Source: Bradyrhizobium valentinum
GTDB lineage: Bacteria > Pseudomonadota > Alphaproteobacteria > Rhizobiales > Xanthobacteraceae
Direction of reading: 5' to 3'
DNA: 64,000 nt
Assembly (NCBI RefSeq): GCF_001440405.1
Contig: NZ_LLXX01000143.1
Location: 35,403 to 99,402, forward strand
Under the pieces are notes generated by a model. That model was not told the DNA's origin. It was given only the letters and a program-made list of their open reading frames with translations, and did no database searches. A program made the translations under genes and the position numbers. This document shows positions 6,414 to 25,369 of this stretch, one piece after another. Position 1 is the first letter of the stretch. Each line of letters starts with the position of its first letter.

Positions 6414-6423
6414 TTTCGCGTTC

Positions 6424-6551: not shown

Positions 6552-8486
6552 ATGGCGTCAGCTAGTTTCGTCGAAATCATTTCCCATTTCGCTGGATATC
6601 TGCAGATCTTCGAGGACATCGCTCGCGATCGCACCCAGTACGATGAGACGCCCGCGCCCGGTCCCTCCGGCGACTACACGACGCTGCGACCGAACTACCA
6701 CCATCGCTACGCGCCAGAGGATATGGACAGTGCGGGGGGGCCAGGGCCGGAGCTGATAGCCGACGATCCGATGGATCTGATCCGCGGCCGTCCGCTCAAG
6801 CTGCACAAAGGCCCGCAGGATCCCGATTTCGATTTTTTTCCGACACCGCTGAAACCGAACATCGTGTTGCCCGCAGCGGGCGGCGGCGGTGGCGGCGGGG
6901 GCGAGCTTAACATCAGGGTGACCTACGAGGACGGCGGCGCGCAGATTCAGCTTGCGGTCCGCCAGTACAACTTCATGCATGACGAGGACGTCAATCTACC
7001 GGCGGATTTCATGGCTGCGGCCGAGCCCTTGATCATGAGCCTCAATGATGATGCGATGGCCGTCATCGGGAAGTTGGTGGACGGTGCCAACGCCGAGATT
7101 CCTACCCATTGGTGGATGACGCAGAACGATGCCGGCCTGCCGGATTTCCTCAAGGCTCACGATGCCGCATGGGCCGACCGCGATGGCACGCCGGATGAGC
7201 ATTCGGTGCCTGCCGGCTACTATGTCAACGGTGAGCTGCAGGAACCGCCAACGGAGCCGAGGCCGCCGATCGAATTGAAGGAGTTGCCGGACACCGGCGA
7301 CGGCATCGGCCAATGGGCGTCGATGGGCGGCAACTACAGCATCAACGCGGCGCTGCTGGTCGATATTGGCGAGGGCGCCCGCACCATGGTGGTGTTGGGG
7401 GACTACTTCAAGACCGATGCCATGTTCCAGACCAACACGACCATCGACAACGACGAGGTCAGCGTGTCGGGTGGGGAGGGCGCGCCATCGGTGACCAGCG
7501 AAGGAAATGTCGCGACCAACATCGCCAACTTCGTCCAGAACCCCAGCATCTACGCCGAACTCCCGTCCTACTGGGCGGGGCCGAACTGGATCGTCGATGT
7601 GGTCGACGGCGACTACTACAGCGTCAATGCGGTGAGCCAAACCAACTATCTCTCCGACAACGATGTGGCAGCGCAGGTCAGCAGTGATGGCCACTACAAC
7701 CTCGTCAGCGGCCACAATCAGCTCGGTAATCTGGCTCAGATTTTTGATGGTGACATTCAATACGACCTGATCGTCATCGAGGGCGCCTATCACGGCATGA
7801 ACGTGATCTTCCAGAACAACATCCTGTTGAACAACGACAACATCGTGATGTCGGCCGACGGCGCCGATCCGTCTCAATCGGTGAGCTCAGGCGACAACAG
7901 CCTGTTGAACGAGGGCGCTATCGAGAATTATGGCGGCGACACCTTCGATGTGCTGACCCCGGGCCTCCAGCAGATCCTGGATCTGCTGGCCTCCGGCGTG
8001 ACGTCGATTGATCCCGAGCTGGGCAGCGCCATCGCCGGCAATGGCGGCCCTCTGCGCGTGCTCTACGTCAAGGGGGACTACTACGACATCAATGCGGTTT
8101 GGCAGACCAACATCACCTCCGACATCAACGTGCTGTATCAACTGCAAAACGAGCCGTCGGCCGATCTGATGGCGCTGGAACCCGGCGGGGGCAGGGGCAT
8201 AAGGCAGTCGGCCACCACAGGCGGCAATGAACTCGCCAACGATGCCGCGATTGTCGATGTCAATCCCGACGTCATTTACGTTGAGGGCGAGGTCTACACC
8301 GATTCCATTCTGGTGCAGGCCAATCTGCTGCCGGTGGACCAGGATGATGCGGTTAATGGCGACACCGATACCCTGGTGACTGAACTCATTGCGTTCGTCG
8401 ATGACACCCAGGACCAGACAAACACGAGCCCGGCTGTCGTTACCAATTCGGTGCAGGCAGATCCGATGGCGAGCGTGCTGCATTAG
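6552..8486 (+). CDS. Large repeat protein, candidate non-RTX type I secretion substrate
   Basis: A 644-residue acidic protein without a Sec signal. A poly-Gly stretch (about 111-118) separates an N-terminal region from a repeat region (about 255-600). Two motifs alternate there: G-x-N-x-x-x-N-x-A-x-I (GNVATNIANFV, GHNQLGNLAQIF, GGNELANDAAIV) and G-D-Y-Y-x-x-N-A-x-x-Q-T-N-x-x-x-D-N-D. The second occurs about five times, near residues 283, 352, 409, 506 and 577, for example GDYYSVNAVSQTNYLSDND. It is followed by the ABC exporter and adaptor genes, which is why I call it their substrate. No calcium-binding GGxGxD nonapeptides are present. The ATG follows GGGGAGG closely. Adhesin or biofilm role is inference. 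Confidence 0.82.
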   Translation: MASASFVEIISHFAGYLQIFEDIARDRTQYDETPAPGPSGDYTTLRPNYHHRYAPEDMDSAGGPGPELIADDPMDLIRGRPLKLHKGPQDPDFDFFPTPLKPNIVLPAAGGGGGGGGELNIRVTYEDGGAQIQLAVRQYNFMHDEDVNLPADFMAAAEPLIMSLNDDAMAVIGKLVDGANAEIPTHWWMTQNDAGLPDFLKAHDAAWADRDGTPDEHSVPAGYYVNGELQEPPTEPRPPIELKELPDTGDGIGQWASMGGNYSINAALLVDIGEGARTMVVLGDYFKTDAMFQTNTTIDNDEVSVSGGEGAPSVTSEGNVATNIANFVQNPSIYAELPSYWAGPNWIVDVVDGDYYSVNAVSQTNYLSDNDVAAQVSSDGHYNLVSGHNQLGNLAQIFDGDIQYDLIVIEGAYHGMNVIFQNNILLNNDNIVMSADGADPSQSVSSGDNSLLNEGAIENYGGDTFDVLTPGLQQILDLLASGVTSIDPELGSAIAGNGGPLRVLYVKGDYYDINAVWQTNITSDINVLYQLQNEPSADLMALEPGGGRGIRQSATTGGNELANDAAIVDVNPDVIYVEGEVYTDSILVQANLLPVDQDDAVNGDTDTLVTELIAFVDDTQDQTNTSPAVVTNSVQADPMASVLH

Positions 8487-8532
8487 CGGCAAGCAGGATG
8501 TTTTGATTATTGGAAGTGAACGGAGTTTCCAA

Positions 8533-10629
8533 ATGTGGGGTTGGGATGTTCGTCCAGGCGGGAGTTGGCGCTTGAGGGAGTATGACGAAGCAACGCCGCA
8601 TATGGCAAAGATAATTCCGCTTCGTCCATGGTTTGATCAGCCCCCTCCGCGTGCCGAGGATCCGCCTGTCGCATTTGCGGACGAGAAGGCGGCTCCGGCC
8701 GTGGCCAAGGTCGCGGAGCCGCCGGCGGTCGAGCCATCACTGCGGGAGGAAGCCAAGACCCCGGCGCCGGGATCCACCGTCGTGATCGAGCAGCAGACTC
8801 CTGCGCCCCCGCTGCAGCGTGGCGGCGACAGGAACGGTGGCGGCTCCTCCGGCGGTGGTGGCGGCGGAGGCGGTGGCGGCACGCCGCGGCTCCAAAAGCG
8901 TTCCGGCGACAATGAATTTCGCGATGTGCTCGGCAAGGGCCTTGCGAATGCCCGCCGCAACCTGGTGACCGTGGGGATATTCTCGATCGCGGTCAACCTG
9001 CTGGTGCTGGCGATTCCGATCTACCTGTTCAACATGTCCGATCGCGTGATGACCAGCCGCAGCACGGACACGCTGGTGATGCTGACCATTATCGTGGTCA
9101 TCGCGATCGGGGCGCATGTGCTCATGGATATGATGCGCCGCGTCATCCTGATGCGGGTGGCGGTCGAGACCGAGGCGCGATTGGGCGGACCGGTGCTGAG
9201 CGCCGCCGCCAAATCCGCGCAGAGTGGATCCAGCCGCGAATTCCAGACGCTGGCCGACCTGCAGCACCTGCGCGCGTTCATTACCGGCCCCGTGCTGCTG
9301 ACGATGTTCGATACGCCGGTGTCGCCGGTCTATTTCGCCGTCGTGTTCCTGATCCATCCGCATCTCGGGTTCATCGTCCTGGGGGCCGGCGTCGCATTGG
9401 TCGTTGTGGCGCTGATAAACCAGCGGGTGACCGCGATCCCGTTCAACCAGGCGAACAATTACGGAGCCAGGGCAAACCTGCAGGCGGAATCGATGGCGCG
9501 CAACGCCCAGGTCATCAACGCCATGGGCATGATTCCCGAAGGCGTGCAGGTATGGGGCCGCGAAACCGTGGAGTCTCTGAAGGCACAGGTGATCGGACAG
9601 GACCTCAACATCCTGATGACGGGCGTGTCGAAATTCCTGCGACTGTGCACCCAGATCGCGATCCTCGGCTGGGGCGCATGGCTGGCGCTGGAGAACGAGA
9701 TCACCAGCGGCATGGTGATCGCGGCCTCGATCGTGGCGAGCCGGGCGCTGGCCCCGCTGGAAGGCACCATCGAAGGCTGGCGCAATTTCGTGCAGGCGCG
9801 TTCGGCTTATGCCCGCATCAGATCCCTGCTGCTGAACTCGCCGCTCAACCTGGAGCGGCTCCGGCTGCCGCGTCCAGCAGGGTATCTCAGCGTCGAGCGC
9901 ATTCTCTACGTGCCGCCGCCGAACAAGAAGGTGATCCTGAACGGGATCAGCTTTCAACTGAAGCCCGGAGAATCCCTTGCCATTGTCGGAGATTCCGGTA
10001 CTGGCAAAACCATGCTGGCCCGCATGCTGGTTGGATCCATCATTCCAACCGCCGGCAGCGTAAGGCTGGACATGATGGATCTGCGTAACTGGGATCCGCG
10101 GCAGTTCGGCGAGAGCGTCGGCTACCTACCGCAGGATGTGCAATTGTTCCCTGCATCCATCAAGGCCAACATCGGCCGGATGCGCGAAGACGCCCGCGAC
10201 GAGGATGTGTTCGACGCGGCCGAGGCCGCCGACGTGCACGAACTGATCTCGAGCTTCGCCCAGGGCTACGAGACCGTTGTCGGCATGGATGGGAGTCCGC
10301 TGTCGGGCGGCCAGCGCCAGCGCATCGGGCTAGCGCGCGCGTTCTACGGCAATCCGCGCCTGCTCGTGCTCGACGAACCGAATTCGAATCTGGACGCCAA
10401 TGGCGAGCGGGCGCTCGCCAAGGCGCTGGTGCGCGCCAAGGAAAAGCAGATCACGGTGGTGACGATCACCCAGCGCGCAGCGCTGCTGATGAGCGTCGAC
10501 AAGATCATGATCCTGCATCAGGGCGCGGTGCAGGCATTCGGCAACCGCGACGAGATCATTCCGATGATCACCGGACGCAAGCCGAACAATATCCCCCCCA
10601 ACGGCAATCCTCCTTCGTTGAATTCATAG
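8533..10629 (+). CDS. Type I secretion system ABC transporter (permease-ATPase, PrtD-like)
   Basis: A 698-residue inner-membrane exporter. A Pro-rich and then poly-Gly N-terminal extension precedes the ABC transmembrane domain (about 140-420) and the nucleotide-binding domain. Walker A is GDSGTGKT (about 486), the signature LSGGQRQRIGLARA (about 589) and Walker B LLVLDEPNSNLD. The switch position usually held by His is Gln here: VVTITQRAALL (Gln about 647). The ATG at 8533 follows CGGAG; an earlier in-frame start would overlap the substrate gene. It should pair with the HlyD-like protein downstream and a TolC-type porin encoded elsewhere. Confidence 0.92.
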   Translation: MWGWDVRPGGSWRLREYDEATPHMAKIIPLRPWFDQPPPRAEDPPVAFADEKAAPAVAKVAEPPAVEPSLREEAKTPAPGSTVVIEQQTPAPPLQRGGDRNGGGSSGGGGGGGGGGTPRLQKRSGDNEFRDVLGKGLANARRNLVTVGIFSIAVNLLVLAIPIYLFNMSDRVMTSRSTDTLVMLTIIVVIAIGAHVLMDMMRRVILMRVAVETEARLGGPVLSAAAKSAQSGSSREFQTLADLQHLRAFITGPVLLTMFDTPVSPVYFAVVFLIHPHLGFIVLGAGVALVVVALINQRVTAIPFNQANNYGARANLQAESMARNAQVINAMGMIPEGVQVWGRETVESLKAQVIGQDLNILMTGVSKFLRLCTQIAILGWGAWLALENEITSGMVIAASIVASRALAPLEGTIEGWRNFVQARSAYARIRSLLLNSPLNLERLRLPRPAGYLSVERILYVPPPNKKVILNGISFQLKPGESLAIVGDSGTGKTMLARMLVGSIIPTAGSVRLDMMDLRNWDPRQFGESVGYLPQDVQLFPASIKANIGRMREDARDEDVFDAAEAADVHELISSFAQGYETVVGMDGSPLSGGQRQRIGLARAFYGNPRLLVLDEPNSNLDANGERALAKALVRAKEKQITVVTITQRAALLMSVDKIMILHQGAVQAFGNRDEIIPMITGRKPNNIPPNGNPPSLNS

Positions 10630-10666
10630 GGACATCAGTCAGGTTTGACAGCAACGAGGTTACGCC

Positions 10667-12031
10667 ATGGCCAACAGGAAAATTGCGGACCGCTCCGCAG
10701 TATCACAAGGCACCTGGTACGATTCGCTGCCGCGATCGACCAAATTTCCAACGGTTGCCGGCGCGCTGATCATGGCCGTGGTGCTGATGGGATTCGGCGT
10801 CTGGGGCAACATGGCGCCGATCGCCGGCGCCGTGGTTGCGTCGGGCGTATTCGTCGTTACCGGACAGAACAAGATCGTCCAGCATCTCGAGGGCGGCGTG
10901 ATCCGGGAGATTTTCGTGCGCGAAGGCGACAAGGTGGAGGCCGGACAAATACTGCTCGAACTCGATGACACGGCGGCGCGTGCGGAGTTGCAGCGGCTGT
11001 TCCTGCGTCGCATCCGCCTGTCGGCCATGGATGCAAGGCTGCAGGCCGAGATGAGGGAGGAGGCGGATATCACGCTTCCGCCGGAGGTCGTCGGTTGGCT
11101 GGGCAAGTCGCCCGAGGCGAAGGAAATCGTGGACAGCCAGCAGATGACGTTTGCGGCGCGCCGTAACAACCTCAACAGCGACGTCAAGAGTATCCAGGAG
11201 AGCATCAACGCTCTGGAGGAGCGGATCCGGGGGTCGCGGGTCCAACTGGACGCGGTCAAGCGCCAGATCGTCCTGCTCGATGAGGAGATCGTGACTAAGG
11301 ACCGTCTGGTGCAGGCCGGACTGGTGCGCAAACCGGAGCTGATGGTGTTGCAGCGGTCGAAGGCCAATCTGGAAGGCGAGGTCGGTCGCATCATGGGTGA
11401 TATCGGGGATGCGAAGGAACGCATTGCCCGCGCGCTCGAGCAGATTAACGGCGTGCGCAAGACAGCGATCAAGACCGCGGTCGAACAGATGCACGAGGTC
11501 CGGGGCGAACTGGCCGACGTCCGCGAGCGGATGCTCAGCGCCAAGGGCATACTCGATCGGGTTCGCGTCACGGCGCCGGTGAGCGGCGTCGTGGTCAAGC
11601 TCCGCTATCATACGCGGGGCGGCGTGGTCGAGGCCGGCAAGAACATCATGGAGCTGTTGCCGGTGAAGGACGAACTGATCATCGAGGCGCGATTGCGGCC
11701 GCAGGACATCGACAGCGTAAAGCACGGACAGGCCGCGATGGTGCGGCTGACGGCGCTGAACCAGCGCATCACGCCGATGGTCTCCGGCGACGTCGTATAC
11801 CTGTCGGCCGATACCCTGGCGGACGAAAAGAAGTCCCAGCAGGTCGGGCCGACCGACATCTATCTCGTCCGCGTCAGGCTCAACAGCGAAGAGAGCCGGA
11901 ATCTTCCGGGCTTCAGTCCGACGCCCGGCATGCCCGCCGAGGTTTACATCAAGACAGCGGAGCGCACGTTCTTCCAGTACCTCATGAGGCCCATCTACGA
12001 CAGCTTTATGCGCGCATTCCGAGAGCGCTAG
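10667..12031 (+). CDS. HlyD-family type I secretion periplasmic adaptor
   Basis: A 454-residue membrane-fusion protein. One N-terminal membrane segment (about 29-50, [17 protein letters not shown]) is followed by a lipoyl half-motif ([21 protein letters not shown]), a long coiled-coil hairpin (about 110-290), the second lipoyl half ([16 protein letters not shown]) and a beta-barrel domain. It follows the ABC exporter by 37 bp, matching the B-D gene order of type I systems. It bridges the inner-membrane ATPase and an outer-membrane TolC protein. Confidence 0.93.
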
Positions 12032-12074
12032 GTCTCGACAGGAACTCAACACGCACTTTGGAAAGGCGTCCGCC

Positions 12075-13634
12075 GTGCATATCGACATCATCGAAACCTT
12101 GCCGTCGCTGGCGAAACTCGAGGACAACTGGAATGCCGTCTACGACGCGGACGACGAGGCGCAGATATTCCTGTCATGGAAATGGCTCAACGGCTTACTG
12201 TCCCACAGTGCGGGGCCATGGTTTATCCTGGCGGCAAAAGCCGACGAGGCCGCGGATACTCCCTACGTTGCGTTCTTTCCGTTGCGGCTGCAAACCACAA
12301 TCAAGAACTCCGATGTCTTCCATGAAATCAGGATGACGGGCTCCGCCGATTACACTGGCATCGTTTGCAGGCCCGAGGTGGAGAACAAGGTCATTCCCGC
12401 GTTTGCCCGATATATCAGGCAGATGAACTGGGCGCGCTTCAAGCTTGATAATCTGCGAATGTCGGAGAGGCGCGTGCGGCTGCTTCTGGCCTGCTTTCCG
12501 AGAGCCAGTTTCCACTGTACGGAGGTCGACATGGTCAGCAAGGTCGATGGGATCGACCTCAGCCGCTGCCCGTATGTGACGCTGCCCAAGGACTGGAACG
12601 CCTATCTCGAAACGCTGAGCTCCAACACAAGACAGAAAATCAGGCGCCTTCTGAAGCAGATCGATGCGCAGGGCGAATATCGAATATCCGTTTCCACCCC
12701 CGAAACCTTTGCGCAAGACCTCAAGACTTTGCTGCGGTTCTGGGAGGCAAGGTGGCGCTCCCGCAAAGGGGATCGGATGGATGGGCTCGTTCGTTCGAAC
12801 AGCGCCATGCTGACGCGCAGTTTTGAATCCGGTCTGGTCTACCTGCCGACGTTCTGGCACGGCGACCGGGCTGTCGCGGCGCTGGCCACGCTGGTGGATC
12901 CGCGCAAGCGCACCTTCTCATTCTACATGACCGGACGCGACGAGACGTTCGATGGACCGCCGGCGGGGGTGATCCTGCATGCCTTCAGCATTCGCCACGC
13001 GATCGAGCTCGGCTATACTGAATACGACTTCCTGCGCGGCAACGAGCCGTACAAATATTCATTCGGCTGCGCGGAGCGCAAGATCCGCGGCACCGTTCTG
13101 GCGACCAGGAACGGCGGGAATCTCGGCGGCAGGATCGACCGCAGGAGCATCCCTGACGTCCTGCGACAGGCGACCGAACTTCACCGGAAGGGGAAGGCTG
13201 CCGACGCCGAGATAGGCTACCGGCGGATTTTGGAGGTTCAGCCAAAACACGCCGACGCGTTGCATCGGTTCGGCCAGTTATTGACGGCGAAGGGTGACTT
13301 CGTCGCGGCCAAGCGGCTGTTCCGCACCTTGACCGCGGTTCGCCCCGACGCCGTCAAGGCATGGCAGTGCTTGGGCCAGGTCTGTGAGAGGCTCGGTCAG
13401 TACGAGGAAGCGCTGCGCCATCATCTCGAGTTCATGCGGCTGCAGCCGGAACTGACAGACGGATTCGTCGCGGTCGGTCGATGCATGGTCAAGCTCGGCC
13501 GGATGGCTGAGATCAACGCCGCGCTGCTGGCCGCGATAGAGCCGGCGAGCGGGTTATCGGTCAGGCGCTGGCGCAACGGCGGGGATGCGCCGGATCAGAG
13601 GGCTGACCGGGAGCAAGCGATGTCGCAGCACTGA
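12075..13634 (+). CDS. GNAT/FemAB-like acetyltransferase fused to TPR repeats
   Basis: A 519-residue protein. Residues about 1-340 look like the CelD/BcsL-type acetyltransferase fold (Acetyltransf_6), with LSSNTRQKIRRLLKQ and YDFLRGNEPYKYSFG as typical segments. Residues about 355-490 form TPR-like repeats (AEIGYRRILEVQPKHADALH, FRTLTAVRPDAVKAWQCLGQ, ALRHHLEFMRLQPELTDGF). The start is GTG at 12075 after GGAAAGG. It is 43 bp downstream of the HlyD-like gene and probably in the same operon, so it may modify the exported proteins or a surface polymer. That role is inference; HlyC-type acyltransferases in toxin operons are only an analogy. Confidence 0.82.
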   Translation: MHIDIIETLPSLAKLEDNWNAVYDADDEAQIFLSWKWLNGLLSHSAGPWFILAAKADEAADTPYVAFFPLRLQTTIKNSDVFHEIRMTGSADYTGIVCRPEVENKVIPAFARYIRQMNWARFKLDNLRMSERRVRLLLACFPRASFHCTEVDMVSKVDGIDLSRCPYVTLPKDWNAYLETLSSNTRQKIRRLLKQIDAQGEYRISVSTPETFAQDLKTLLRFWEARWRSRKGDRMDGLVRSNSAMLTRSFESGLVYLPTFWHGDRAVAALATLVDPRKRTFSFYMTGRDETFDGPPAGVILHAFSIRHAIELGYTEYDFLRGNEPYKYSFGCAERKIRGTVLATRNGGNLGGRIDRRSIPDVLRQATELHRKGKAADAEIGYRRILEVQPKHADALHRFGQLLTAKGDFVAAKRLFRTLTAVRPDAVKAWQCLGQVCERLGQYEEALRHHLEFMRLQPELTDGFVAVGRCMVKLGRMAEINAALLAAIEPASGLSVRRWRNGGDAPDQRADREQAMSQH

Positions 13635-13640
13635 ATGGCT

Positions 13641-13661
13641 GCCGCGCCGGCAAGGCGCGGC
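13641..13661 (+). terminator. GC hairpin after the secretion operon
   Basis: GCCGCGCC (13641-13648) pairs with GGCGCGGC (13654-13661) around GGCAA. It lies 7 bp after the stop of the acetyltransferase gene. There is no T tract, so it could be an RNA-stabilising or weak termination hairpin. Confidence 0.4.
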
Positions 13662-13873
13662 GGATGACTGGTCAGGAGTGAGCACCATGTTGGCAATGAC
13701 CAGAGATGTCAGTCATCGGCGTTCTCGCAGCAAAACAACGGCGCGGCGAATCCCCGGCGTTGGTGAGGCGCCACTATTCGTATCGCTGCTGGTCGCGTCC
13801 TATGAGCGGGAGTTGATCGCTGGGTTCTGCCGGTCGTTTCCGACGGTGCCGCAAGCTGCATGGATGAGCTGTA

Positions 13874-14149
13874 ATGGGTTCTGGTCCAAAGACACCATCC
13901 GATCCAGCCGCGTCCACTGAGCAGCCTCCGCTGCCTCACCGGACGCGCGTCAGGATGACAGCGCTGGGCGCGGAACGATGCCCGAACCTCGCCGGCAGGG
14001 AAGGCGTCGTCGTCGGCTCGGGGCAGTACCGCAGCACCGTCCGTGTCATGTTCGATGGGTTCAAGTCGCCGACGTCGCTGCACAGCTCTTACGTCGAAGC
14101 TGTGGTCGAGCAAGAGCGCGCTTCCAGCCGTCGCCGGACGTGCCGATAG
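13874..14149 (+). CDS. Small conserved hypothetical protein (SH3/KOW-like)
   Basis: A 91-residue basic protein with a compact beta-rich core: RVRMTALGAERCPNLAGREG, then VVVGSGQYRSTVRVMFDG and SPTSLHSSYVEAV. The alternating pattern with G-x-V-V-x-G resembles small SH3/KOW-like barrels, and I recall similar small proteins in Bradyrhizobium. The first 25 residues look disordered. The gene is isolated and its function unknown. Confidence 0.6.
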   Translation: MGSGPKTPSDPAASTEQPPLPHRTRVRMTALGAERCPNLAGREGVVVGSGQYRSTVRVMFDGFKSPTSLHSSYVEAVVEQERASSRRRTCR

Positions 14150-14258
14150 GACGCAAGTCAGCGTTGAAGCTGACCGTTATGAGCGCGGGACTCTACCTGG
14201 AAATTCGAGCAAAATCAGTGATTATCGTTTGAGATCGTGCGCGTTCGTGCACGTTTGT

Positions 14259-14705
14259 TCATGGGGTTTCTGGCGGATAACTGGCGGGGCGGCGGGCAGC
14301 AATTTCTGCTCGCAACGCTGTGAGCGGCTTATTGCGGTCCAGTTCGGAGCCATAGAGACTTGTCGAGATCAGACCCGCTCGGAACGCCAGCGCGGTTTTA
14401 CGTGGCGCAAATATGACGCCCATCAGTGCCAGAGGCAGGCAGAAGAGCGTCGCCGCCCAGTGGCGGTAGCGTCCGGCGGCAAACTCCCAGGCGGCCATCT
14501 GCATCTCTCCCGTCATCGTGCAGGGATAGCCGGTGAGAATGTGGTGGAGGTCGTGCCGAGTGATGGCGTCTCGCCTCCACTTCCAGTTTGGAAATTCAAC
14601 CGACACCGGCCCTATCTTGCAAATCCATGTCGCAGCGCGAGCGGGGTCAGCCTCTATGCCATTCGCCGCATAATAAGCGGCGAGGGCTTCAGCCGCAGTC
14701 GTCAC
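14259..14705 (-). CDS. Coq4-like protein with HDxxHx11E metal motif
   Basis: A 148-residue soluble protein. RHDLHHILTGYPCTMTGE contains His-Asp-x-x-His, eleven residues, then Glu, which matches the zinc-ligand motif HDxxHx11E of COQ4 proteins of ubiquinone synthesis. It is shorter than typical COQ4. The GTG start overlaps the stop of the upstream desaturase gene (GTGA), so the two are translationally coupled. That pairing suggests action on a lipid or isoprenoid-like substrate; a true ubiquinone role is not shown. Confidence 0.72.
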   Translation of the reverse strand: MTTAAEALAAYYAANGIEADPARAATWICKIGPVSVEFPNWKWRRDAITRHDLHHILTGYPCTMTGEMQMAAWEFAAGRYRHWAATLFCLPLALMGVIFAPRKTALAFRAGLISTSLYGSELDRNKPLTALRAEIAARRPASYPPETP

Positions 14706-15676
14706 AACTGGACTCTCGAAATTTCAGCTTGGCCGGGCGCACAGACTGAAAGCGAGCGGGCGCGGACCGGGCTTATTCCAGGCCTGGGCGGCAGCTCCGC
14801 GGGCACCTGAACATTCCACGCCAGGCCAAGGGCGCGAAGCAGCCTCACGAACTCCCAGCCGAGATCGATCTGCCCGGGATAGAGACCGTGCCGCGCAGAG
14901 CCCGGAAAGGCGTGATGGTTATTGTGCCAGCTCTCTCCCATTGTTGGAATAGCCATCAAGGGCACGTTGTGCGCCTGGACCACCGCGCCGTCGACTGTCC
15001 AGTCCTGCTCTCCTTGTGTGTGCGCAAAGTAGGATATTCCCCAATGCATGGTCGTGCAGGCCGCGACGCGTACAAAGACGCCCCAAACGACAAAAGGCCA
15101 CCCGCCCAGCCAATAGAGAACGAGTGCGATCGGAATCTGGTGCAACATCCAGGTGCGATCGAGAAACTGATAGAAGGGATCGTCGCCAATTCCCGGACCA
15201 GGATCGAAACCAGGAGGACGCTTCAGGACAAGCCGGCCATGGAGGTAGAGCAGGCCATCCAACCAAAAGTCTTTCCGGTGCGCGAGGAACGGATGACAAT
15301 CGACCTGGCGCTGCGCCCAATCCCGGCTGTCGTGCACGCGAATAGTCCATAGCGGCCCACCCATGCCCACCGCCGTTCCGAACCAGACCAGCGTCCTCTC
15401 CAGCCATTTAGGACACTCGAAGCTGCGGTGAATGAGGCGCCGGTGGAAGCCGACGGAGTGGCCGGCGCAAAGCGTGATTGCGGCTGTGATCAGAAAGACG
15501 GCCAAGGCGCTCCACGAAGATGTGAGCGGACCGAGGACGATGGCCCCAAGCAGCATCGCGCCATTCCACAGGGAGCGCGGTGCATCCCAAACAATCGTGC
15601 CCTCGACAGGCGACGCCTCGTCCAGATTGGTCAGCGAATTGACTTTGTAAAAATCGTGCTGCTCCTGGACCATCAT
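14702..15676 (-). CDS. Membrane fatty acid desaturase (acyl-CoA desaturase type)
   Basis: A 324-residue membrane protein with hydrophobic pairs around 35-85 and 185-225. Box 1 is HSVGFHRRLIH and box 3 is WHNNHHAFPGSARHG. Box 2 is atypical: RVHDSRDWAQRQ replaces HxxHH, followed by DCHPFLAH. This matches a bacterial subfamily related to delta-9 desaturases that uses a di-iron centre. The ATG at 15676 is preferred over upstream in-frame starts that would add a non-homologous N-terminus. It is the first gene of a pair with the Coq4-like gene. Confidence 0.85.
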   Translation of the reverse strand: MMVQEQHDFYKVNSLTNLDEASPVEGTIVWDAPRSLWNGAMLLGAIVLGPLTSSWSALAVFLITAAITLCAGHSVGFHRRLIHRSFECPKWLERTLVWFGTAVGMGGPLWTIRVHDSRDWAQRQVDCHPFLAHRKDFWLDGLLYLHGRLVLKRPPGFDPGPGIGDDPFYQFLDRTWMLHQIPIALVLYWLGGWPFVVWGVFVRVAACTTMHWGISYFAHTQGEQDWTVDGAVVQAHNVPLMAIPTMGESWHNNHHAFPGSARHGLYPGQIDLGWEFVRLLRALGLAWNVQVPAELPPRPGISPVRARSLSVCAPGQAEISRVQL

Positions 15677-16239
15677 CCAGACCTCGGCTCTTTGCTGATA
15701 CCAGGAAAAAATTGGCGAGACGGTGCTGCTCCGCCCAGCTTTCCTACCAGAAAAGCATAAAGAAAGCATGAAAGTGCAACGCCAGATTGAGTCGTTGCTT
15801 CCCACGCAAAAGCTAGTCCGTCAAATTTGCCGTCGCTGGTGCGAAGCGGACTCTTTGAAAGCAGAGTTGCCGCTAACGACAACACGTGAGCTGACCAAGA
15901 GTGGCTCTCAATCAGCCGGTCAGAAGCCACCATTGCTGCCCCCAAGAGCCCGTCGTCGGGCAGGGCCATGGGCGATCTTAAGAATTGCATGATGATGCAA
16001 TAGTGCGGCTGATTTGCCCGACGTGTCAAAATGTTTTCGCGGGATCATGCCAGCGACCCCTGTTACTTTGCATGGGGTTGTTTTCGATATTTTATTGGGA
16101 GCGAGATCGCGTCGGTGCTCGCGGCTGTCTCCTCACTAAGATCGCAGGATGGCTTGCCGAGCCGTAGCTCGCGGATGCGCCCGCCTACGCCCAAGCGGGC
16201 TTCGGCGCGGCAGCCTTCACTCGCTTCGCGAGCGAAGGC
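15677..16239. other. Intergenic region upstream of the desaturase, left flank of the tRNA scar
   Basis: No gene is supported here; the frames lack family features. The right end carries a strong hairpin that abuts the tRNA 3' half. The desaturase promoter must lie near 15700-15850. Confidence 0.4.
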
Positions 16240-16240
16240 T
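16212..16240 (-). terminator. Hairpin directly after the tRNA 3' end
   Basis: AGCCTTC (16212-16218) pairs with GAAGGCT (16234-16240), and inside it CTCGC (16220-16224) pairs with GCGAG (16228-16232). On the minus strand it follows the tRNA CCA end at once, as a tRNA processing or termination hairpin would. No T tract is evident. Confidence 0.6.
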
Positions 16241-16284
16241 GGTGGGCCCGGCAGGACTCGAACCTGCAACCAGACCGTTATGAG
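16240..16284 (-). tRNA. Truncated tRNA (CAU anticodon, 3' half only), probable att site remnant
   Basis: Read on the minus strand, this 45-nt stretch gives the anticodon loop CTCATAA, the 3' anticodon strand CGGTC, the variable region, the T arm GCAGGTTCGAGTCCTGC and the acceptor strand CGGGCCC ending in CCA. It is the 3' half of a tRNA with CAU anticodon (Met or Ile2). Sequence above 16284 does not form the matching 5' half: GCGGTC would be needed to close the anticodon stem. A 3' fragment starting at the anticodon loop is the usual scar of tyrosine-recombinase integration. It is not a functional tRNA. Confidence 0.82.
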
Positions 16285-16327
16285 TGGGAGGATCAGGCGA
16301 GGGCGGTTTGCCTGGCCGAGCCTGGAT

Positions 16328-17299
16328 TCATTGCGGCTCGATACCTGCCTGCTTGATGATGCGAGACCATTTGTCGGTCTCGGTTCTGAGAAAGGCATCG
16401 AGCGCCGCGGGCGTGGCGCGTTCGTCCTCAACCGGCGTCATGCTGAGTTCGGCGAAGCGGTTGACCAAGGGCGGGTCCTTGAGCGCCTTTTTCAGCGCAT
16501 CCACCAGCGCATCGACGATCGGCTTCGGCGTGTTGCGCGGCGCATACATGCCGTACCAGGTCGTCACGTCGAACGCCGGTACGCCGGCCTCCGCCGAGGT
16601 TGGCAGGTTCGGCAACGTCGATACGCGTTTCTTGCTCGTGATGGCATATCCCGGAATGGTGCCCGCCTGAATAAAGGGCGTCGGCCCGGTCGCGGGATCG
16701 CAATAGACGTCGATGTGACCAGCGAGGATGTCATTCAGCGCCGGTCCGCCGCCCTTGTAATAGACCGGCGTAAGCTTGGCTTGGACGGCGCTCATGAACA
16801 TCAGCCCGCAAAGATGCGATGCAGACCCCAGGCCGACATTGCCGTAGGTGACCTTGTCGCCCTGGGCGCGCACGTGCGCGATCAGCTCTTTCAGATCCTT
16901 GGCGGGAAAGTTCGGACGCGCGATCAGGATCATCGGAACGTCGGTCACCAGGCCAATCGGTGCGAAGTCGCCGATCGGATCGAACGGCAATTTTGCATAT
17001 AGCGCGGGCGCAGTGGCCTGGCCGACATGCATCAACAACAATGTGTAGCCGTCGGGCGGGGCCTTGGCGACCCGGTTGGTGCCGAGGGTGCCGCCGGCGC
17101 CGACGACGTTTTCGATGACGACGGCCTGCTTCAGCGTCGCGCTCATCGACGTTCCGAGCAGGCGCGCGATCACATCGCCTGGCCCGCCGGCAGAGAACGG
17201 AACGACGAGGGTGATCGGCCGGCTCGGATATTCCTGGGCGAATGTCGGGGTGACCTGTGAAAGCAACAGCAATAGCAGTACGCGCTTGAAAAACTTCAT
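16328..17299 (-). CDS. Tripartite tricarboxylate transporter (Bug-family) substrate-binding protein
   Basis: A 323-residue periplasmic receptor. A Sec signal (KFFKRVLLLLLLSQVTPTFA) is followed by the Bug-family start YPSRPITLVVPFSAGGPGD and the internal motifs GAGGTLGTNRVAKAPPDGYT and TPVYYKGGGPALNDILAGH. Bug proteins bind carboxylates or aromatic acids. No TctA or TctB membrane partner lies nearby, as is usual for orphan Bug receptors. AGGAAG precedes the ATG. It is downstream of the GntR gene on the same strand. Confidence 0.93.
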   Translation of the reverse strand: MKFFKRVLLLLLLSQVTPTFAQEYPSRPITLVVPFSAGGPGDVIARLLGTSMSATLKQAVVIENVVGAGGTLGTNRVAKAPPDGYTLLLMHVGQATAPALYAKLPFDPIGDFAPIGLVTDVPMILIARPNFPAKDLKELIAHVRAQGDKVTYGNVGLGSASHLCGLMFMSAVQAKLTPVYYKGGGPALNDILAGHIDVYCDPATGPTPFIQAGTIPGYAITSKKRVSTLPNLPTSAEAGVPAFDVTTWYGMYAPRNTPKPIVDALVDALKKALKDPPLVNRFAELSMTPVEDERATPAALDAFLRTETDKWSRIIKQAGIEPQ

Positions 17300-17327
17300 G
17301 GCTGCTTCCTATCGGGATGAGGTTCGC

Positions 17328-18038
17328 TCATTCGTTCAACTTCTCGTTCGATGCGGATGCCCGCTCGATCATGCTGAGCGCGGCCACCGCGGCCGCCTTC
17401 ACATGATCGACGCAACACTGCTCGGCGAGGTCTGGGTCGCCGCTCTGGATGGCGCGCCAGATTGCTGTAACTTCGCGGAGGCTCTTGTTGATCCGCTTCG
17501 GCTGCGACATCGAGGTGATCCGCAACAGCGTGATGCGGTCGTGCAGCGGGCGAAGCATGCGCTCGATGAAGGCATTCTGGCAGCCGCCGATCAGCGCTGC
17601 ATAGAACTCCGTCTTGGCTTCAAGCGCCATCATCAGGTCGGATTCGGCGAACGCGGCCTTCAGCTTGGTCAGCGCGTCCCCGATCTTGCGGACGACAACG
17701 GGGTCACGCAGGCGGGCGCATTCACGGCCGGCAAACCCTTCCAGGACGGCGCGGGCGGCGTAAAGCTGCTTGGCTTCCTCGAGGCTGATGGTGCTGACGA
17801 CGGGGCCGCGATGCGGGACGGTCGCGACGAGACCGTCGGCTTCCAATGCCCGAAGCGCCTCGCGAATGGACGGCCGACTGACACCAGTCATCTCGCAAAG
17901 CTCCCGCTCGATCAGGCGCTCGCCCGGCTTGAATCTTCCGGACATGATTGCCTCGCGCAGCTTTTGCGCAACCATCGAGCGGACGGTGGGAACGCCCTCG
18001 ATTCGCAGCGTGGATTGCAATTCAGCGCGCTTGTCCAT
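17328..18038 (-). CDS. GntR-family transcriptional regulator (FCD/FadR subfamily)
   Basis: A 236-residue regulator. The N-terminal winged helix (SGRFKPGERLIERELCEMTG, SRPSIREALRALEADGLV) is followed by an all-helical FCD ligand domain (about 95-220) whose Asp and His residues usually bind a metal and a carboxylate effector. It lies amid the catabolic genes and probably controls them in response to a pathway acid. A palindrome at 18055-18068, just before its start, is a likely self-operator. Confidence 0.93.
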   Translation of the reverse strand: MDKRAELQSTLRIEGVPTVRSMVAQKLREAIMSGRFKPGERLIERELCEMTGVSRPSIREALRALEADGLVATVPHRGPVVSTISLEEAKQLYAARAVLEGFAGRECARLRDPVVVRKIGDALTKLKAAFAESDLMMALEAKTEFYAALIGGCQNAFIERMLRPLHDRITLLRITSMSQPKRINKSLREVTAIWRAIQSGDPDLAEQCCVDHVKAAAVAALSMIERASASNEKLNE

Positions 18039-18054
18039 TGCCTACCGCCTTCGT

Positions 18055-18068
18055 ATCGGAATACCGAT
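18055..18068. promoter_or_regulatory. Candidate GntR/FCD operator
   Basis: ATCGGAATACCGAT has arms ATCGG and CCGAT around AATA, 17 bp upstream of the GntR gene ATG. On the minus strand it reads ATCGGTATTCCGAT, close to the T-x-GGTATACC-x-A type of box recognised by many FCD regulators. Autoregulation is inferred. Confidence 0.5.
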
Positions 18069-18179
18069 TCAGTAGCGATTTACGGGCAGAATCATCATTT
18101 CCGCAATCTGAACATGAGGTGGCTGGTCCCGTGCAAACACGGTCGACCGGGCGATATCCTCGGTGTGGAGTGTTGGTGC

Positions 18180-18953
18180 TCATGCGATGGACCAGCCTCC
18201 GTCGATCGGCAGCGTCGCGCCCGTGATGTCCTGCCCGGCCGGGCTGGACAGGAAGACAACCATTGCGCCCACGCTTTCCATGGCGACAAACCGCCCGGTC
18301 GGCTGCCGCGCCATCAGATAGTCGCGCGTTGCTTCGTCGACGGCGCGGCCTTCGCTCGCCGCGATCGATGCAATCTTGCCCTGGATGGCCGGCGTCGGAA
18401 GGACGCCCGGGCAGAGGGCGTTGCAGGTGATCCCGTCCCGTGTCGTCTCGATCGCGACTGCCCGGGTCATGCCGAGAATGGCGGTTTTCGTGGTCACGTA
18501 GTCGATGCGGTCGGCAATGGCGCGGCTCGCATAGATCGAGGCCATGTTGATGATGCGGCCCCAGCCACGCTGCTTCATGGCGGGCAGCGCGAGCCGGACC
18601 AGATGAAAGGGCGCCGACAGATTGACCGCCAGCGCCTCTTCCCAATGCTCCGGAGCAAATGTCTCGACCGGTGAAAAATGCCGGACCACGGCGTTGTTCA
18701 CCAGGATATCGATGGCTCCGAGGCGCCCGAGTAGGTCGTCCATCATGGTTTCGATCGATGAACGTTGTGACAGGTCGGCGGCCACGCTTACGGCATCGAC
18801 ACCGAAACGGGAACGAAGACGATCCCGGGCCTCCCGGGGCTCAAGCAGGTCGTGCAGGGCAATATTGGCACCGGCGCCGGCCAGGCTCTCCGCCACGGCC
18901 AGCCCAAGGCCGGCTGTTGCGCCGGTGACGAGTGCCCATTTGCCCTGCAGCAT
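18180..18953 (-). CDS. SDR-family NAD(P)-dependent oxidoreductase
   Basis: A 257-residue classical short-chain dehydrogenase. It has the cofactor motif TGATAGLGLA near the N-terminus, NNA (VNNAVVRH), a catalytic Ser in NMASIYAS and Y-x-x-x-K in DYVTTKTAI. It resembles 3-hydroxybutyrate and glucose dehydrogenase-type enzymes, but the substrate is not identifiable. The start at 18953 (MLQGKWALVTG) puts the Rossmann motif at the expected place; an upstream in-frame ATG would add a spurious extension. It follows the decarboxylase-like gene closely and is likely in one operon with it. Confidence 0.92.
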   Translation of the reverse strand: MLQGKWALVTGATAGLGLAVAESLAGAGANIALHDLLEPREARDRLRSRFGVDAVSVAADLSQRSSIETMMDDLLGRLGAIDILVNNAVVRHFSPVETFAPEHWEEALAVNLSAPFHLVRLALPAMKQRGWGRIINMASIYASRAIADRIDYVTTKTAILGMTRAVAIETTRDGITCNALCPGVLPTPAIQGKIASIAASEGRAVDEATRDYLMARQPTGRFVAMESVGAMVVFLSSPAGQDITGATLPIDGGWSIA

Positions 18954-18969
18954 CGGATCGGGCTCCTGT

Positions 18970-19353
18970 TTATTTCTTCTGGTCCAACTCGGCGAATACT
19001 TCCCGCGCGTTGCGGAAAGCATCGACGCCGGCCGGTACGCCGCAATAGATTGCAACCTGCATGAAGACCTCGCGTATCTCCTCGCGCGTCGCTCCGTTGG
19101 TCAGTGCGCCCCGAACGTGCGTCTTGAGTTCATGCGGCCGGTTCAGTGCGCACAGCATCGCCAGGTTGAGAAAGCTGCGGGTCTTGTGGCTAAGGCCATC
19201 GCGGCCCCAGACATAGCCCCAGCAATATTCCGTCGTGAGGTCCTGCATCGGCCGGTTGAAGTCGTCGGCCGAAGTGATTGCCTTGTCGACGAATTCATCG
19301 CCCAGGACGCTCTTGCGGATCTTGAGGCCTCGATCGTATGTCGCCTTGTCCAT
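18970..19353 (-). CDS. Carboxymuconolactone decarboxylase-family protein (PcaC/AhpD-like)
   Basis: A 127-residue all-helical protein with the CMD core LNLAMLCALNRPHELKTHVR and EIREVFMQVAIYCGVPAGVD. The Tyr/Cys/His pattern near the C-terminus (YCGVPAG) is that of PcaC-like enzymes rather than CxxC AhpD. PcaC decarboxylates 4-carboxymuconolactone in protocatechuate breakdown; relatives act on other lactones. It closely resembles the second copy at 29371. The ATG at 19353 is preferred over a TTG four codons earlier. Confidence 0.9.
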   Translation of the reverse strand: MDKATYDRGLKIRKSVLGDEFVDKAITSADDFNRPMQDLTTEYCWGYVWGRDGLSHKTRSFLNLAMLCALNRPHELKTHVRGALTNGATREEIREVFMQVAIYCGVPAGVDAFRNAREVFAELDQKK

Positions 19354-19389
19354 ATCGGTATCCAATGTGTTGCGGTTGATGGCTACACG

Positions 19390-20625
19390 CTAGTTTTTGG
19401 GCCAGAACGGTTGGGCCAGCGCCAGTTGCGGAGGGAACACCGTGACGGGTACGCCGGATTGCCATTGCACGATGGTCATGCCGGCGCCGACGCGGCGGCC
19501 CTTTTCATCGAACTTGATTTCACCGAGCGGGTAATATTTGGAGGGACCGCCATCCATGGCGCGCAGGGCGTCGGCCACCGCGACGCGGTCGGCCTTGCCG
19601 GCCTTTTCGAGCGCGTCCTTGATCACCCACATGTCGCCATAGGTGGAGATCGCATTCTGCGTCATCCACGGTTCCTTGTAGCGGGTCTTGAGTTCGGCAA
19701 TAAGGGCCTCGTGACCCTTGGCGCCCCAGCTTGCGACGCAGGTGAGCAGGCCTTGCAGCAATTCAGGGCTTACGGTCTGCAACATGTCGGGTTCGGCGAT
19801 GGCGATGCCGAACGAGATCGTCGGAATCTTGCCTTGTCCCAAGCCGAACTCGTTCATCTTCTCGAGCAGTAGCTTGGCGTCGGAAATGACGGTCGGCAGG
19901 AAGAAGAGCAGGTCTGGTCTGGCTGAGCGGACTTTCTGGACCAGCGAGGTGGCATCGGCGAGCGGCGGGGTAAAGGTTTCGTCGACGGTCAGTTGGAGGC
20001 CGTTTTCGGCGAGCAGGCCGTCCCGCATCGCTTTGGCCGAGGAAACCGATGCCGCCGTGTTATCCGTGACGATCGCGACCGTCTTTGGCTTCTTGCCGGA
20101 AGCCGTCTCCGCAAGCTTCACGATCTGAGGCAGGGCCTGCTTTGCCTGCGAGCCGGCCGTTGCCGACGTCTGGAAGACATACTTGAAGCCCCGATCGGTA
20201 ATCAGATCGGAATAGGAGAGGGTCAGGACCGGAAGATTGGCCCGCTCGGTCACTTCCGTGACGGCAAGCGTGAATGAACTGAGATAGGCGCCGCTCGCCG
20301 CCACAAGGTCGGGCTCCTGGGCGACCATCCGTTGCGCGGCATTCTTGGCCTTCTCTGTCGTATCGCCGGAATCAAGTACGACCAGTTTCAGCTTGGCACC
20401 GCCGAGCGATTTGATGCCGCCTTGCGCGTTGATGTGATCCACCGCCATCTCGGCGCCTTGTCGCATCACCGTACCCGGGCGGGCATAAAGGCCGGAAACC
20501 GGCACCAACAATCCGACCTTGACCTCGGAAGGCTGCTGCGCCCATGCGCGAGAAGAGATCAGGCCGGCGGATGCACCGGCGAGCAGGCTGCGCCGCGTCA
20601 ATGCGGCCCGGGTAGCTCTTGTCAT
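19390..20625 (-). CDS. ABC transporter substrate-binding protein (LivK-like)
   Basis: A 411-residue periplasmic binding protein of the leucine/amide-binding family (Peripla_BP_6). The N-terminus has TRRSLLAGASAGLISSRAWA, a probable Tat-type signal. The mature protein begins EVKVGLLVPVSGLYARPG. Its partners are the LivH, LivMG and LivF genes upstream on the same strand. It is a close paralogue of the next gene upstream (20662-21906), including the segments VMRQGAEMAVDHINAQGG and NAAQRMVAQEPDLVAASGAY. The substrate may be an aromatic acid or amide rather than leucine, given the catabolic context. Confidence 0.93.
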   Translation of the reverse strand: MTRATRAALTRRSLLAGASAGLISSRAWAQQPSEVKVGLLVPVSGLYARPGTVMRQGAEMAVDHINAQGGIKSLGGAKLKLVVLDSGDTTEKAKNAAQRMVAQEPDLVAASGAYLSSFTLAVTEVTERANLPVLTLSYSDLITDRGFKYVFQTSATAGSQAKQALPQIVKLAETASGKKPKTVAIVTDNTAASVSSAKAMRDGLLAENGLQLTVDETFTPPLADATSLVQKVRSARPDLLFFLPTVISDAKLLLEKMNEFGLGQGKIPTISFGIAIAEPDMLQTVSPELLQGLLTCVASWGAKGHEALIAELKTRYKEPWMTQNAISTYGDMWVIKDALEKAGKADRVAVADALRAMDGGPSKYYPLGEIKFDEKGRRVGAGMTIVQWQSGVPVTVFPPQLALAQPFWPKN

Positions 20626-20661
20626 CGCTAATCCTCCCTGAAGTTTTTGAACGCGTTACGG

Positions 20662-21906
20662 TCAGGACTTCTTCGGCCAGAATGGCGCAGCCAATGCGAG
20701 ATCGGACGGATAGACTGTGACGGGCACGCCGGACTGCCACTGCGCGATCACCACGCCGGCGCCGACGCGGCGGCCCTTCTCGTCGAACTTGAGCTGGCCG
20801 CCCGGGTAGTGCTTCGACGGACCGCCGTCCATGGTCCGGAACGCCTGTGCAACGGCAAGGCGATCGGCCTTTCCGGCTTGTTCGAGCGCTGCCTTCATCA
20901 GCCACATATCGCCGTAGGTCGAGATGACGTTCTGCGTCATCCAGGGCTCCTTGTATTTTGCCTTCAACTCGGCGATCAGCGCCTCGTGGCCCTTCGAGCC
21001 CCAGTTGGCGACCACCGTCATGATGCCCTGAACGGCTTCCGTGCTGACGCTTTGCAGCATGTCGGGCTCGGCGATCGTGATGCTGAAGGAGACGGTCGGG
21101 ATCTTGCCTTGGCCGAGCCCGAACTCGTTGATCTTTTCCAGGCCGAGCTTGGCGTCGGAAATGGCGTTGGGCATGAACAGCAGCAGATCTGGACGCGCCG
21201 ACCTGACCTTCTGGATCAGCGGCGTCGCATCGGAAAGCAGGGGCGTCCATACTTCTTCCACGACGAGCCGAAGGCCTTCCTGCGCGAAGATTTTCTCCTT
21301 CAGCGCCTTGGCGGTCGCAACTGACGTCGCCGTATTGTCCATCAGCATCGCTACCGTCTTCGGGCGTTTGCCGGATGCGGCCTCGGCAAGCTTCATCAGT
21401 TCAGGCAGGCCGAGTTCCGACTGCCGGCTTGCGGGCGCTGCGGTCTGGAAGATGAATTTGAAGCCGCGCTCGGTCAGCAGGTCCGAATAGGACAATGTGA
21501 GCATCGGCAGCTCGGCGCGTTCGGTCACCTCGGTCACCGCCAGCGTAAACGAGCTGAGATACGAGCCGGTCGCCGCAACCAGGTCCGGCTCCTGCGCCAC
21601 CATGCGCTGCGCCGCATTCTTGGCCTTTTCAGTGGTATCGCCGCAATCGATCACAATCAGCTTGAGCTTGGCGCCGCCGAGCGATTTGATGCCGCCTTGA
21701 GCGTTGATGTGCTCGATGCCCATCTCTGCGCCCATCCGCATCACCTGGCCCGGCCGGGTGTAAATGCCCGACAGCGGCACGATCAAGCCGACCTTGACCT
21801 CGGCAGGTTGCTGCGCGCGCGCCATCGTCGACAGTCCCATGGCGGCGGCACCGGAGAGCACGGTTCGCCGCGTCAACGATGTCTTCGACATATTGGCCTC
21901 GCCCAT
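20662..21906 (-). CDS. ABC transporter substrate-binding protein (LivK-like), tandem paralogue
   Basis: A 414-residue binding protein, collinear with the 19390 gene over its full length (EVKVGLIVPLSGIYTRPGQV, MGIEHINAQGGIKSLGGAK, KNAAQRMVAQEPDLVAATGS). A Tat-like signal (SLTRRTVLSGAAAMG) is present. GGGAG lies 8 bp before the ATG at 21906; a second ATG five codons later is also possible. The tandem arrangement suggests a gene duplication that widened or split ligand specificity for one transporter. Confidence 0.93.
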   Translation of the reverse strand: MGEANMSKTSLTRRTVLSGAAAMGLSTMARAQQPAEVKVGLIVPLSGIYTRPGQVMRMGAEMGIEHINAQGGIKSLGGAKLKLIVIDCGDTTEKAKNAAQRMVAQEPDLVAATGSYLSSFTLAVTEVTERAELPMLTLSYSDLLTERGFKFIFQTAAPASRQSELGLPELMKLAEAASGKRPKTVAMLMDNTATSVATAKALKEKIFAQEGLRLVVEEVWTPLLSDATPLIQKVRSARPDLLLFMPNAISDAKLGLEKINEFGLGQGKIPTVSFSITIAEPDMLQSVSTEAVQGIMTVVANWGSKGHEALIAELKAKYKEPWMTQNVISTYGDMWLMKAALEQAGKADRLAVAQAFRTMDGGPSKHYPGGQLKFDEKGRRVGAGVVIAQWQSGVPVTVYPSDLALAAPFWPKKS

Positions 21907-21943
21907 TTTCGTTCTCCCAATGGTGTTATTGATCGTTTGTTGG

Positions 21944-22634
21944 TTACATGCCGAGATAGGCCTTGCGGATGCGGTCGTCCGCCCGCAAGGTTTGGTTGTT
22001 GCCTTCGAGTGCGACGCGGCCTGCTTCGAGAACGTAGCCGTGGTCGGCCGATTCCAGCGCCTCCGCCACGCGCTGTTCGACCAGCAGGATGGTGAGGTTC
22101 GATTGCCGCCGGATCTCGATCAGCCGTTCGAAGATGAAATCCGCGATGGTTGGCGCGAGGCCCATCGAGGGCTCATCCAGCATCAGGAGTTTCGGCGAGG
22201 AGGCGAGCCCGCGGCCGATCGCCAGCATCTGCTGCTGTCCGCCGGACAGTGTTCCTGCGAACTGGCCGCGGCGTTCGGCGAGGATCGGCAGCCATTCGAA
22301 GATGCGCTCGATATTGTGTTTCCAGTCGCGCTGACCGGCCTCGGTCATCGCGCCCATTTCGAGATTTTCCATCACCGTGAGCGACGGAAAAACTTGACGG
22401 CCTTCCGGGACATGGGCGATGCCGAGATGCGCGCGCTGCGCGGGCCGGATCGACAGCAGGTCTTGATTGGCGAACCTGATCGTACCGGTGCTCGGACGCA
22501 CGATGCCGGAAATCGTCTTGAACAGGGTGGTCTTGCCGGCGCCGTTCGGTCCGACGATAGCGACGAACTGGCCTTCCTCGACCTTGATCGAGACGTCGTT
22601 CAAGACCGGGATCGAATAGCCTGATGTCAGCCCT

Positions 22635-22648
<14 letters not shown>
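21944..22648 (-). CDS. livF: Branched-chain amino acid-type ABC transporter ATPase (LivF)
   Basis: A 234-residue ATPase. It has Walker A GPNGAGKTTLF, signature LSGGQQQMLAIGRGL, Walker B LLMLDEPSMGL and the His switch region ILLVEQRVAEAL. It overlaps the end of the LivM-LivG fusion gene by 14 bp. It energises import together with that fused ATPase domain. Confidence 0.94.
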
Positions 22649-24418
<1,770 letters not shown>

Positions 24419-24422
<4 letters not shown>

Positions 24423-25369
24423 GTCCTCTCGACCATGCGCCCGAAGAAACCTTGCGGGCGGAAAAAGATGATCAGGAGAAACACGACGAAGATCGCGGCG
24501 TTCTGCAATTGCGTCGGAAGGATCAGCGTCGACATCTGCTGGACCAGGCCGATCGTCATGCCGCCCCAGAAGGCGCCGATGATGCTGCCCATGCCGCCGA
24601 GCACGACGCCGGCATACATGACGATGACGTATTCGACGCCGACAAAGGGGTGAAATGGATAGTTTGTGGCGAGCAGGCCACCCGCGATCGCGGTGATACC
24701 AGTGCCGAGCGCGAAGGCAATGCGGTGCGCGCGGTCAACGTCGATACCCATATAGGTCGCCGCGGTGGGGTTGTCGGCCGCGGCGCGCAGCGACTTTCCG
24801 ATCCGCGACCGCGTGATCATTAGCGTCAGCAGCAACATCGTCACCAGCGAAACAACCGCGTCTATCCCGCGCGCCTTGTTGATGAAGACGCTGACGTCAT
24901 AAAATAACGGTCCAAGCTCCCACGCCGAACTCGACAGCGGCGTCCGGATCGAGGCAAGCACCGAACCGAACACGAGCAGACCGCCGTTCTGCAGGATCAG
25001 CGCGATCCCGAGCGTCAGGATGAGCTGGGCATAATGCCCCTCTCCCTCGAGCGAAGAGGTGCGCGTGCCTGATACGCGTGAGATCAGGGTAAGGTGGACG
25101 AAGTAGCCGAAGACGGCCAACACCGGGCCGGCCAGCAGGATCGCGACGAACGGTCCAAAGGTGTTGCCGAACGTGGCCTGCACGCCGAGCGCAGTGAAGA
25201 AATAGAACGCCGCGTACATGCCGAGCATCATGAAATCGCCCTGGGCAAAATTGATCACCCGCATAACGCCGAAGATCAGCCCGAGCCCGACGCACATCAG
25301 GCCGTAGACCGCGCCGATAAGGAGGCCGGCGGACAACGCTTGCAGAAAACCTTCCAGCACCTGTGTCAC
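24419..25369 (-). CDS. livH: Branched-chain amino acid-type ABC transporter permease (LivH)
   Basis: A 316-residue integral membrane protein with about eight segments. The LivH hallmarks GLIFGVMRVINFAQGDFMML near the N-terminus and VGVEYVIVMYAGVVLGGMGS near the C-terminus are both present. It pairs with the LivM half of the next gene to form the translocation channel. It begins the transporter part of the minus-strand catabolic operon. Confidence 0.94.

Follow-up and report, generated by a model that had tools for sequence, protein, structure and literature searches.

A 45-nt piece of a tRNA-Met gene in Bradyrhizobium valentinum is probably the scar of an integrase-type recombination in the anticodon loop of that gene. 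The catabolic and transport operon on its right was probably resident already, so that the piece is unlikely to mark the edge of an island extending rightward. The window, that is, the whole stretch of 64,000 nt analyzed here, corresponds to C143:35403-99402 of an 8.85-Mb draft genome (G000) in 242 contigs, and positions given without a contig are counted from its first base. On the minus strand at 16240-16284, the 3' half of tRNA-Met(CAT) reads CTCATAACGG...CCA, and its bases 1-7, CTCATAA, are the anticodon loop. Directly 3' of CCA lies a 14-bp hairpin (16211-16241, minus strand), and near-identical sequence follows the intact tRNA-Met genes of G084, G012, G106, and G054. An earlier note on this DNA had described a 45-nt CAU half running from the anticodon loop to CCA and then a hairpin, and this description is exact. 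The 89-nt stretch folds with a z-score of -3.2, and no T-run was found 3' of the hairpin. Next to it, a repeat-like stretch (15947-16210, minus strand; end points approximate) also occurs after other tRNA-Met copies, with ~74-84% identity over parts of its length.

The genome contains three exact copies of the 45-mer and one copy with two mismatches, while a reversed control pattern has no match, which rules out a chance origin of the fragment. Only one of these copies, C25:81603-81678, is an intact tRNA-Met(cat) gene according to ARAGORN, and it lies on a contig other than that of the fragment in this 242-contig draft; two more orphan halves are found elsewhere. One of them has two mismatches and carries the element arm described below, lying 54 kb from the intact gene in the same orientation, and C25:81603-135735 is thus a plausible tRNA-Met island, with no Phage_integrase match inside it. 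The other, C130:44291-44335, is preceded by a degraded 5' half and resembles a decayed whole tRNA gene. In addition, C234 has an intact tRNA-Lys(CTT) gene, and several sequences on C239, C46, and C93 match no more than the 3' end of this gene, which is perhaps a second island hot spot of this genome. No tRNA gene was found in the window, and the tRNA 3'-end pattern, searched over the whole of C143, returned only the known fragment. Tyrosine integrases are represented in the genome by 31 Pfam Phage_integrase matches, none of them on C143, C25, or C130, and 58 integrase queries searched by tblastn against all 193 kb of C143 yielded a single 46-aa scrap outside the window. The earlier note was therefore right that the window holds no integrase, and both the intact tRNA-CAU gene and the integrases that it proposed to look for are present elsewhere in the genome.

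The same right flank is joined to the same anticodon-side half in a separate assembly, that of Bradyrhizobium sp. CSA112 (G102), the closest relative found, whose matching operon lies on a 530,008-bp contig, equal in length to NZ_JAACFS010000003.1. Because this assembly is independent, the junction is no misassembly of the B. valentinum draft, and the reading of the fragment as a displaced 3' half of tRNA-Met that marks a genuine boundary is supported. The first gene to the right encodes a TctC-type receptor (16328-17299, minus strand); transcription of this gene would run toward the fragment, from which the stop codon, at 16328, is 43 nt away. The operon region that we take as resident (16317-31824) is collinear with C118 of G102 over that length and encodes the TctC receptor, a GntR regulator, an SDR, two Peripla_BP proteins, ABC transporter parts, two MmgE/PrpD proteins, and a second TctC, the genes next to the first TctC gene being those for the regulator, the dehydrogenase, branched-chain-type transport, and the two MmgE/PrpD proteins. 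G102 diverges from the window at 31824. From there to 64000 the G+C content drops to 52-64% per kb, and genes of polysaccharide type are found, including those for sugar transferases, an O-antigen ligase, export, and chain length.

Genome searches used one genome per species, with 265 genomes of the genus drawn for the TctC and left-cluster searches and 146 for the other genus searches. The TctC gene (query 16200-17300, E 1.5e-185 or better) is matched in 81 of the 265, but the match includes the tRNA-Met fragment in G000 and G102 only, starting at query base 111 or beyond in the other 79. The DNA right of the fragment is thus not specific to fragment-bearing genomes. Within ~1.5 kb of TctC, a tRNA-Met half (up to 10 mismatches) was found in none of 28 other loci scanned, and the single positive among 22 loci of a second TctC set is CSA112 itself. 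In three relatives, tRNA-Lys or a fragment of it lies beside TctC: the intact tRNA-Lys(CTT) gene precedes it at 0.4 kb in G229 and 0.9 kb in G254, and in G051 a tRNA-Lys 3' fragment is found at a distance of ~90 bp, with the intact tRNA-Lys gene 61 kb farther off on the same contig. In complete genomes, the operon is far from tRNA-Met (3.41 versus 7.12 Mb in G053, and 2.28 versus 5.50 Mb in G019). The TctC distribution, the tRNA-Lys neighbors, and the distance from tRNA-Met together suggest that the operon was resident before the tRNA-Met half arrived. Its left neighbors differ among the compared genomes, except in the pair G229-G254, and its right neighbors differ too; since both ends vary, the operon itself may have moved.

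tRNA-Met is a repeatedly used recombination hot spot across Bradyrhizobium: the 45-mer (up to 2 mismatches) is present in 142 of 146 same-genus genomes, often in more than one copy. The 102 distinct copies compared, 51 intact and 51 orphan, are not a random set, many of the orphans having been picked by hand. Excluding those of the window and G102, 49 orphan halves are left, 34 of which share a 60-nt arm on the anticodon (5') side, with a consensus of about ACGCGAnCnAAnnnnAnCnAAAAnnCnGnAAAATCAACGAAGCTnnnCnATATCCnGCCG, and 15 of which do not. An integrated element would be expected to have such an arm. Arm-bearing orphans have leave-one-out scores of at least 16.7, and the maximum along the window, sampled every 7 bases, is 5.3. 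With a score of -29.5, the right side of the window fragment is close to background (mean -34.8) and does not look like an element end. On the opposite side of the tRNA, a comparison of 17 loci revealed no common gene within ~1.5 kb downstream of tRNA-Met. The exceptions to this lack of sharing are short matches that link G084, G012, and G106 and further ones that G106 has with G019, whereas the upstream sides of these loci have many mutual matches. A sequence similar to CACTTTgAgAACGACTCGATT occurs within ~60 bases after the tRNA-Met copies of L002, L069, L073, L325, L326, and L335; as a guess, it is possibly the end of an insertion sequence.

To the left, the fragment adjoins accessory DNA (3265-16239) with genes for a LuxR-type regulator, ABC and HlyD-type transporters, an acyltransferase-TPR protein, and a desaturase. 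Among 146 genomes, long matches of at least 89% to 13500-16284 occur only in G102 and, in part, G053, and the region of the fatty acid desaturase gene (14702-15805, minus strand) is also found in G053, 37 kb downstream of a tRNA-Met fragment. Positions 1-3264 (plus strand) are the end of a gene cluster, consisting of oxidoreductase genes here and of ABC transporter and LysR genes left of the window. This cluster occurs at other places in many genomes (265 searched, 56 of them unscorable), and the conserved stretch ends at 3264-3268 in all six relatives compared, for which reason we rejected the idea that one element spans the 22.5 kb to the left. The left DNA is thus a mosaic in which no single inserted element can be delimited. 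Beyond the left edge of the window lies a siderophore-type cluster, so named from its Pfam families. With matching order and orientation, it follows an intact tRNA-Met gene in G098, at 64 kb, and an orphan tRNA-Met half in G254, at 12 kb; the 74 kb covered in G254 include no intact gene. This agrees with the earlier note, according to which the left side is the old downstream flank of the tRNA gene. In G019, this left cluster and the operon are 912 bp apart, with neither fragment nor accessory genes between them, and in the same order they are 32 kb apart in G091 and ~161 kb in G037.

In G102, the right flank and the anticodon side of the fragment are those of the window, but four bases of the fragment have changed, all within the last twelve. 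The DNA to its left is different and includes the remnant of a tyrosine integrase gene (Pfam E 1.3e-8). This remnant has an in-frame stop, and its frame, when extended by eye, stops 2 nt short of the CCA end; no integrase is near the fragment in the window. Among 30 loci scanned, all 15 with both an ARAGORN tRNA (Glu in six, Arg in five, Met in three, and Leu in one) and a related integrase have the integrase on the CCA side and pointing to the tRNA. By this rule, the element of G102 is placed on the left. The changed end of its fragment, GGGATCGCCA, is that of tRNA-Arg(TCT). The ten nearest relatives of the remnant (54-80% identity, L292-L301) include five at intact tRNA-Arg(TCT) genes and one at an Arg-like 3' end, in addition to one (G110) at a Met/Arg hybrid and three at other or no recognised tRNA ends. 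The hybrid fragments, L136 7020-7064 in G102 and L300 1238-1282 in G110, combine the anticodon side of tRNA-Met with an acceptor end like that of tRNA-Arg(TCT), and each adjoins an integrase of this mostly Arg-associated family. It is tempting to speculate that orphan tRNA halves serve as landing pads that let integrases switch targets, in which case the scar of the window would show what such a pad was like before the switch, when it was still purely tRNA-Met. We regard this as a tentative idea, weakened by the orphan Arg halves L302 and L313: these start at the anticodon loop, whereas the idea requires an unusual crossover, one within the T-arm that the two tRNAs share.

Between the fragment and the flank common to G254 is a 32-nt spacer (16285-16316), which occurs only in the B. 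valentinum genome and G102 among the loci compared, as was also found by a search that required an exact match of the 8 bases at either end and tolerated up to 9 mismatches. It was rejected as an element arm, ~11% of background positions scoring equally high. In G254, the intergenic DNA beside TctC, read on the tRNA strand, contains CTCACAACGGCCTGG, which is identical to the start of the tRNA-Met half at 13 of 15 bases (11 of 15 in G229). Among 349,374 background positions, 13 identities are reached only at this site and at the G102 fragment, a comparison whose length and place were picked after inspection. Over the 17-bp anticodon stem-loop, G254 is mismatched at four positions and G229 at five, and in G000 and G102 the 32-nt spacer intervenes. 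A TctC flank from a close strain that has a near-match to CTCATAACGGTCTGG and lacks both spacer and fragment would support recombination at a secondary site.

These observations are best accommodated by a tyrosine recombinase that uses tRNA-Met as its attachment site and would act at the anticodon loop. The tRNA-Met 3' half, together with the hairpin and the DNA to its left, would have been joined to DNA outside any tRNA gene, right after the TctC gene of the resident operon. Either an element integrated there, at a secondary site, or two attachment-like sites recombined in an inversion; the data fit either. The site may then have been hit again in the G102 lineage, leaving the integrase remnant of the mostly tRNA-Arg(TCT) family against the fragment and its last bases Arg-like. 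We infer the recombinase step, its direction, and the greater age of the operon relative to the junction from how the sequences are arranged in the genomes compared. Several points weaken this reading, among them the 15 armless orphans, the mosaic nature of the left DNA, the variable ends of the operon, and the lack of an integrase near the fragment in the window. No simple crossover explains the 32-nt spacer. The left side bears the ordinary tRNA-Met hairpin and no element arm, which would fit an old attachment end equally well. Finally, the two junctions of one element are not seen together, the fragment being the only tRNA-Met half in C143:15403-119402 with up to 13 mismatches allowed, and the SDR remnant expected beside the reciprocal junction has no match in G000 and G102. 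As regards an inversion, the siderophore-type cluster and the operon are oriented differently to each other in G254 and in C143, but they are 3.2 Mb apart in G254, and a reciprocal junction was not found.

The main alternative is a passive origin, in which a deletion removed the element from an ordinary old attachment end at tRNA-Met, or an unrelated rearrangement fused the operon to this end, with the spacer as a leftover and no recombinase acting at the junction. The spacer itself speaks for such a history, as do the rearranged order of segments around the junction and the many orphan halves available as starting points. It leaves unexplained why the exact anticodon-loop end is kept at the junction and why G254 has a sequence much like the tRNA core at the equivalent position, and we therefore consider it unlikely, although it ranks next after recombination of an attachment half. 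A rung below stands the model of the earlier note, namely that the fragment is the far end of one or more islands at tRNA-Met and that all DNA to its right as far as the intact tRNA, the operon included, has been inserted. The TctC gene present in 81 of 265 genomes, the tRNA-Lys gene or fragment that adjoins this first operon gene in three relatives, and its distance of megabases from tRNA-Met in G053 and G019 argue against it. So do the CCA-side integrase remnant on the left in G102 and the missing element arm on the right, which the 15 armless orphans among the other 49 lack as well. What the model does account for is the position of the siderophore-type cluster downstream of tRNA-Met in G098 and G254, the hairpin typical of intact tRNA-Met genes, and the intact tRNA and other orphan halves on other contigs, and the draft state leaves room for a very large pile of islands. 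On balance, insertion to the right is improbable. The note had also named an observation that would count against it, the same fragment beside the same right flank in distant genomes; the combination does recur, but only in the close relative G102.

Retention of the half tRNA for a function, for example as the 3' end structure (half plus hairpin) of the TctC transcript, would suit a gene read toward the fragment and a strong hairpin. It is very improbable, given that the half is not contiguous with TctC in 79 of the 81 genomes, that no T-run follows the hairpin, and that four positions have already changed in G102. Recombination of the attachment half thus remains the probable explanation. A general lesson is that the side of the inserted DNA is not readable from a displaced tRNA half alone; relatives and the element arm are needed as well. 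For Bradyrhizobium tRNA-Met elements, a consensus of the 60-nt arm is now available, and the pure Met half here and the Met/Arg hybrid of G102 form a pair of states for testing an integrase target switch.

Compared with known systems, as portrayed in those parts of the cited papers that are drawn on here, the scar is locally interesting but no new kind of system. Like tRNA-targeted islands with a displaced tDNA fragment in the Islander sense, it has a CCA-ending 3' half that starts at the anticodon loop and an intact copy elsewhere, whereas it has no integrase nearby, no intact tRNA on the contig, and no arm on the expected island side (PMC4383910). In Bacillus subtilis, secondary attachment sites of ICEBs1 are reported to differ from its 17-bp tRNA site at 2 to 12 bases (PMC3715440). 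There, too, an attachment half would be joined to DNA that is no tRNA gene but is similar to the anticodon stem-loop; in contrast, the present case has one known junction, a 32-nt spacer, and only sequence to go by. Within Bradyrhizobium, attachment-site recombination is reported to cause large chromosome inversions, and the symbiosis ICEs, including polypartite ones with inversions, share with our case the genus, tRNA attachment sites, and large rearrangements, although the portions of the two papers used here name tRNA-Val, Ile, Glu, Gln, Pro, Arg, and His and not tRNA-Met (PMC9174649, PMC9239051). The tRNA species itself recurs in Bradyrhizobium symbiosis islands, inside which tRNA-Met genes occur as whole genes, with no orphan half beside an operon in the part of that report covered here (PMC4070871). 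It is likewise shared with Mesorhizobium, whose ICEs and IMEs at tRNA-Met are complete elements (PMC8627217).
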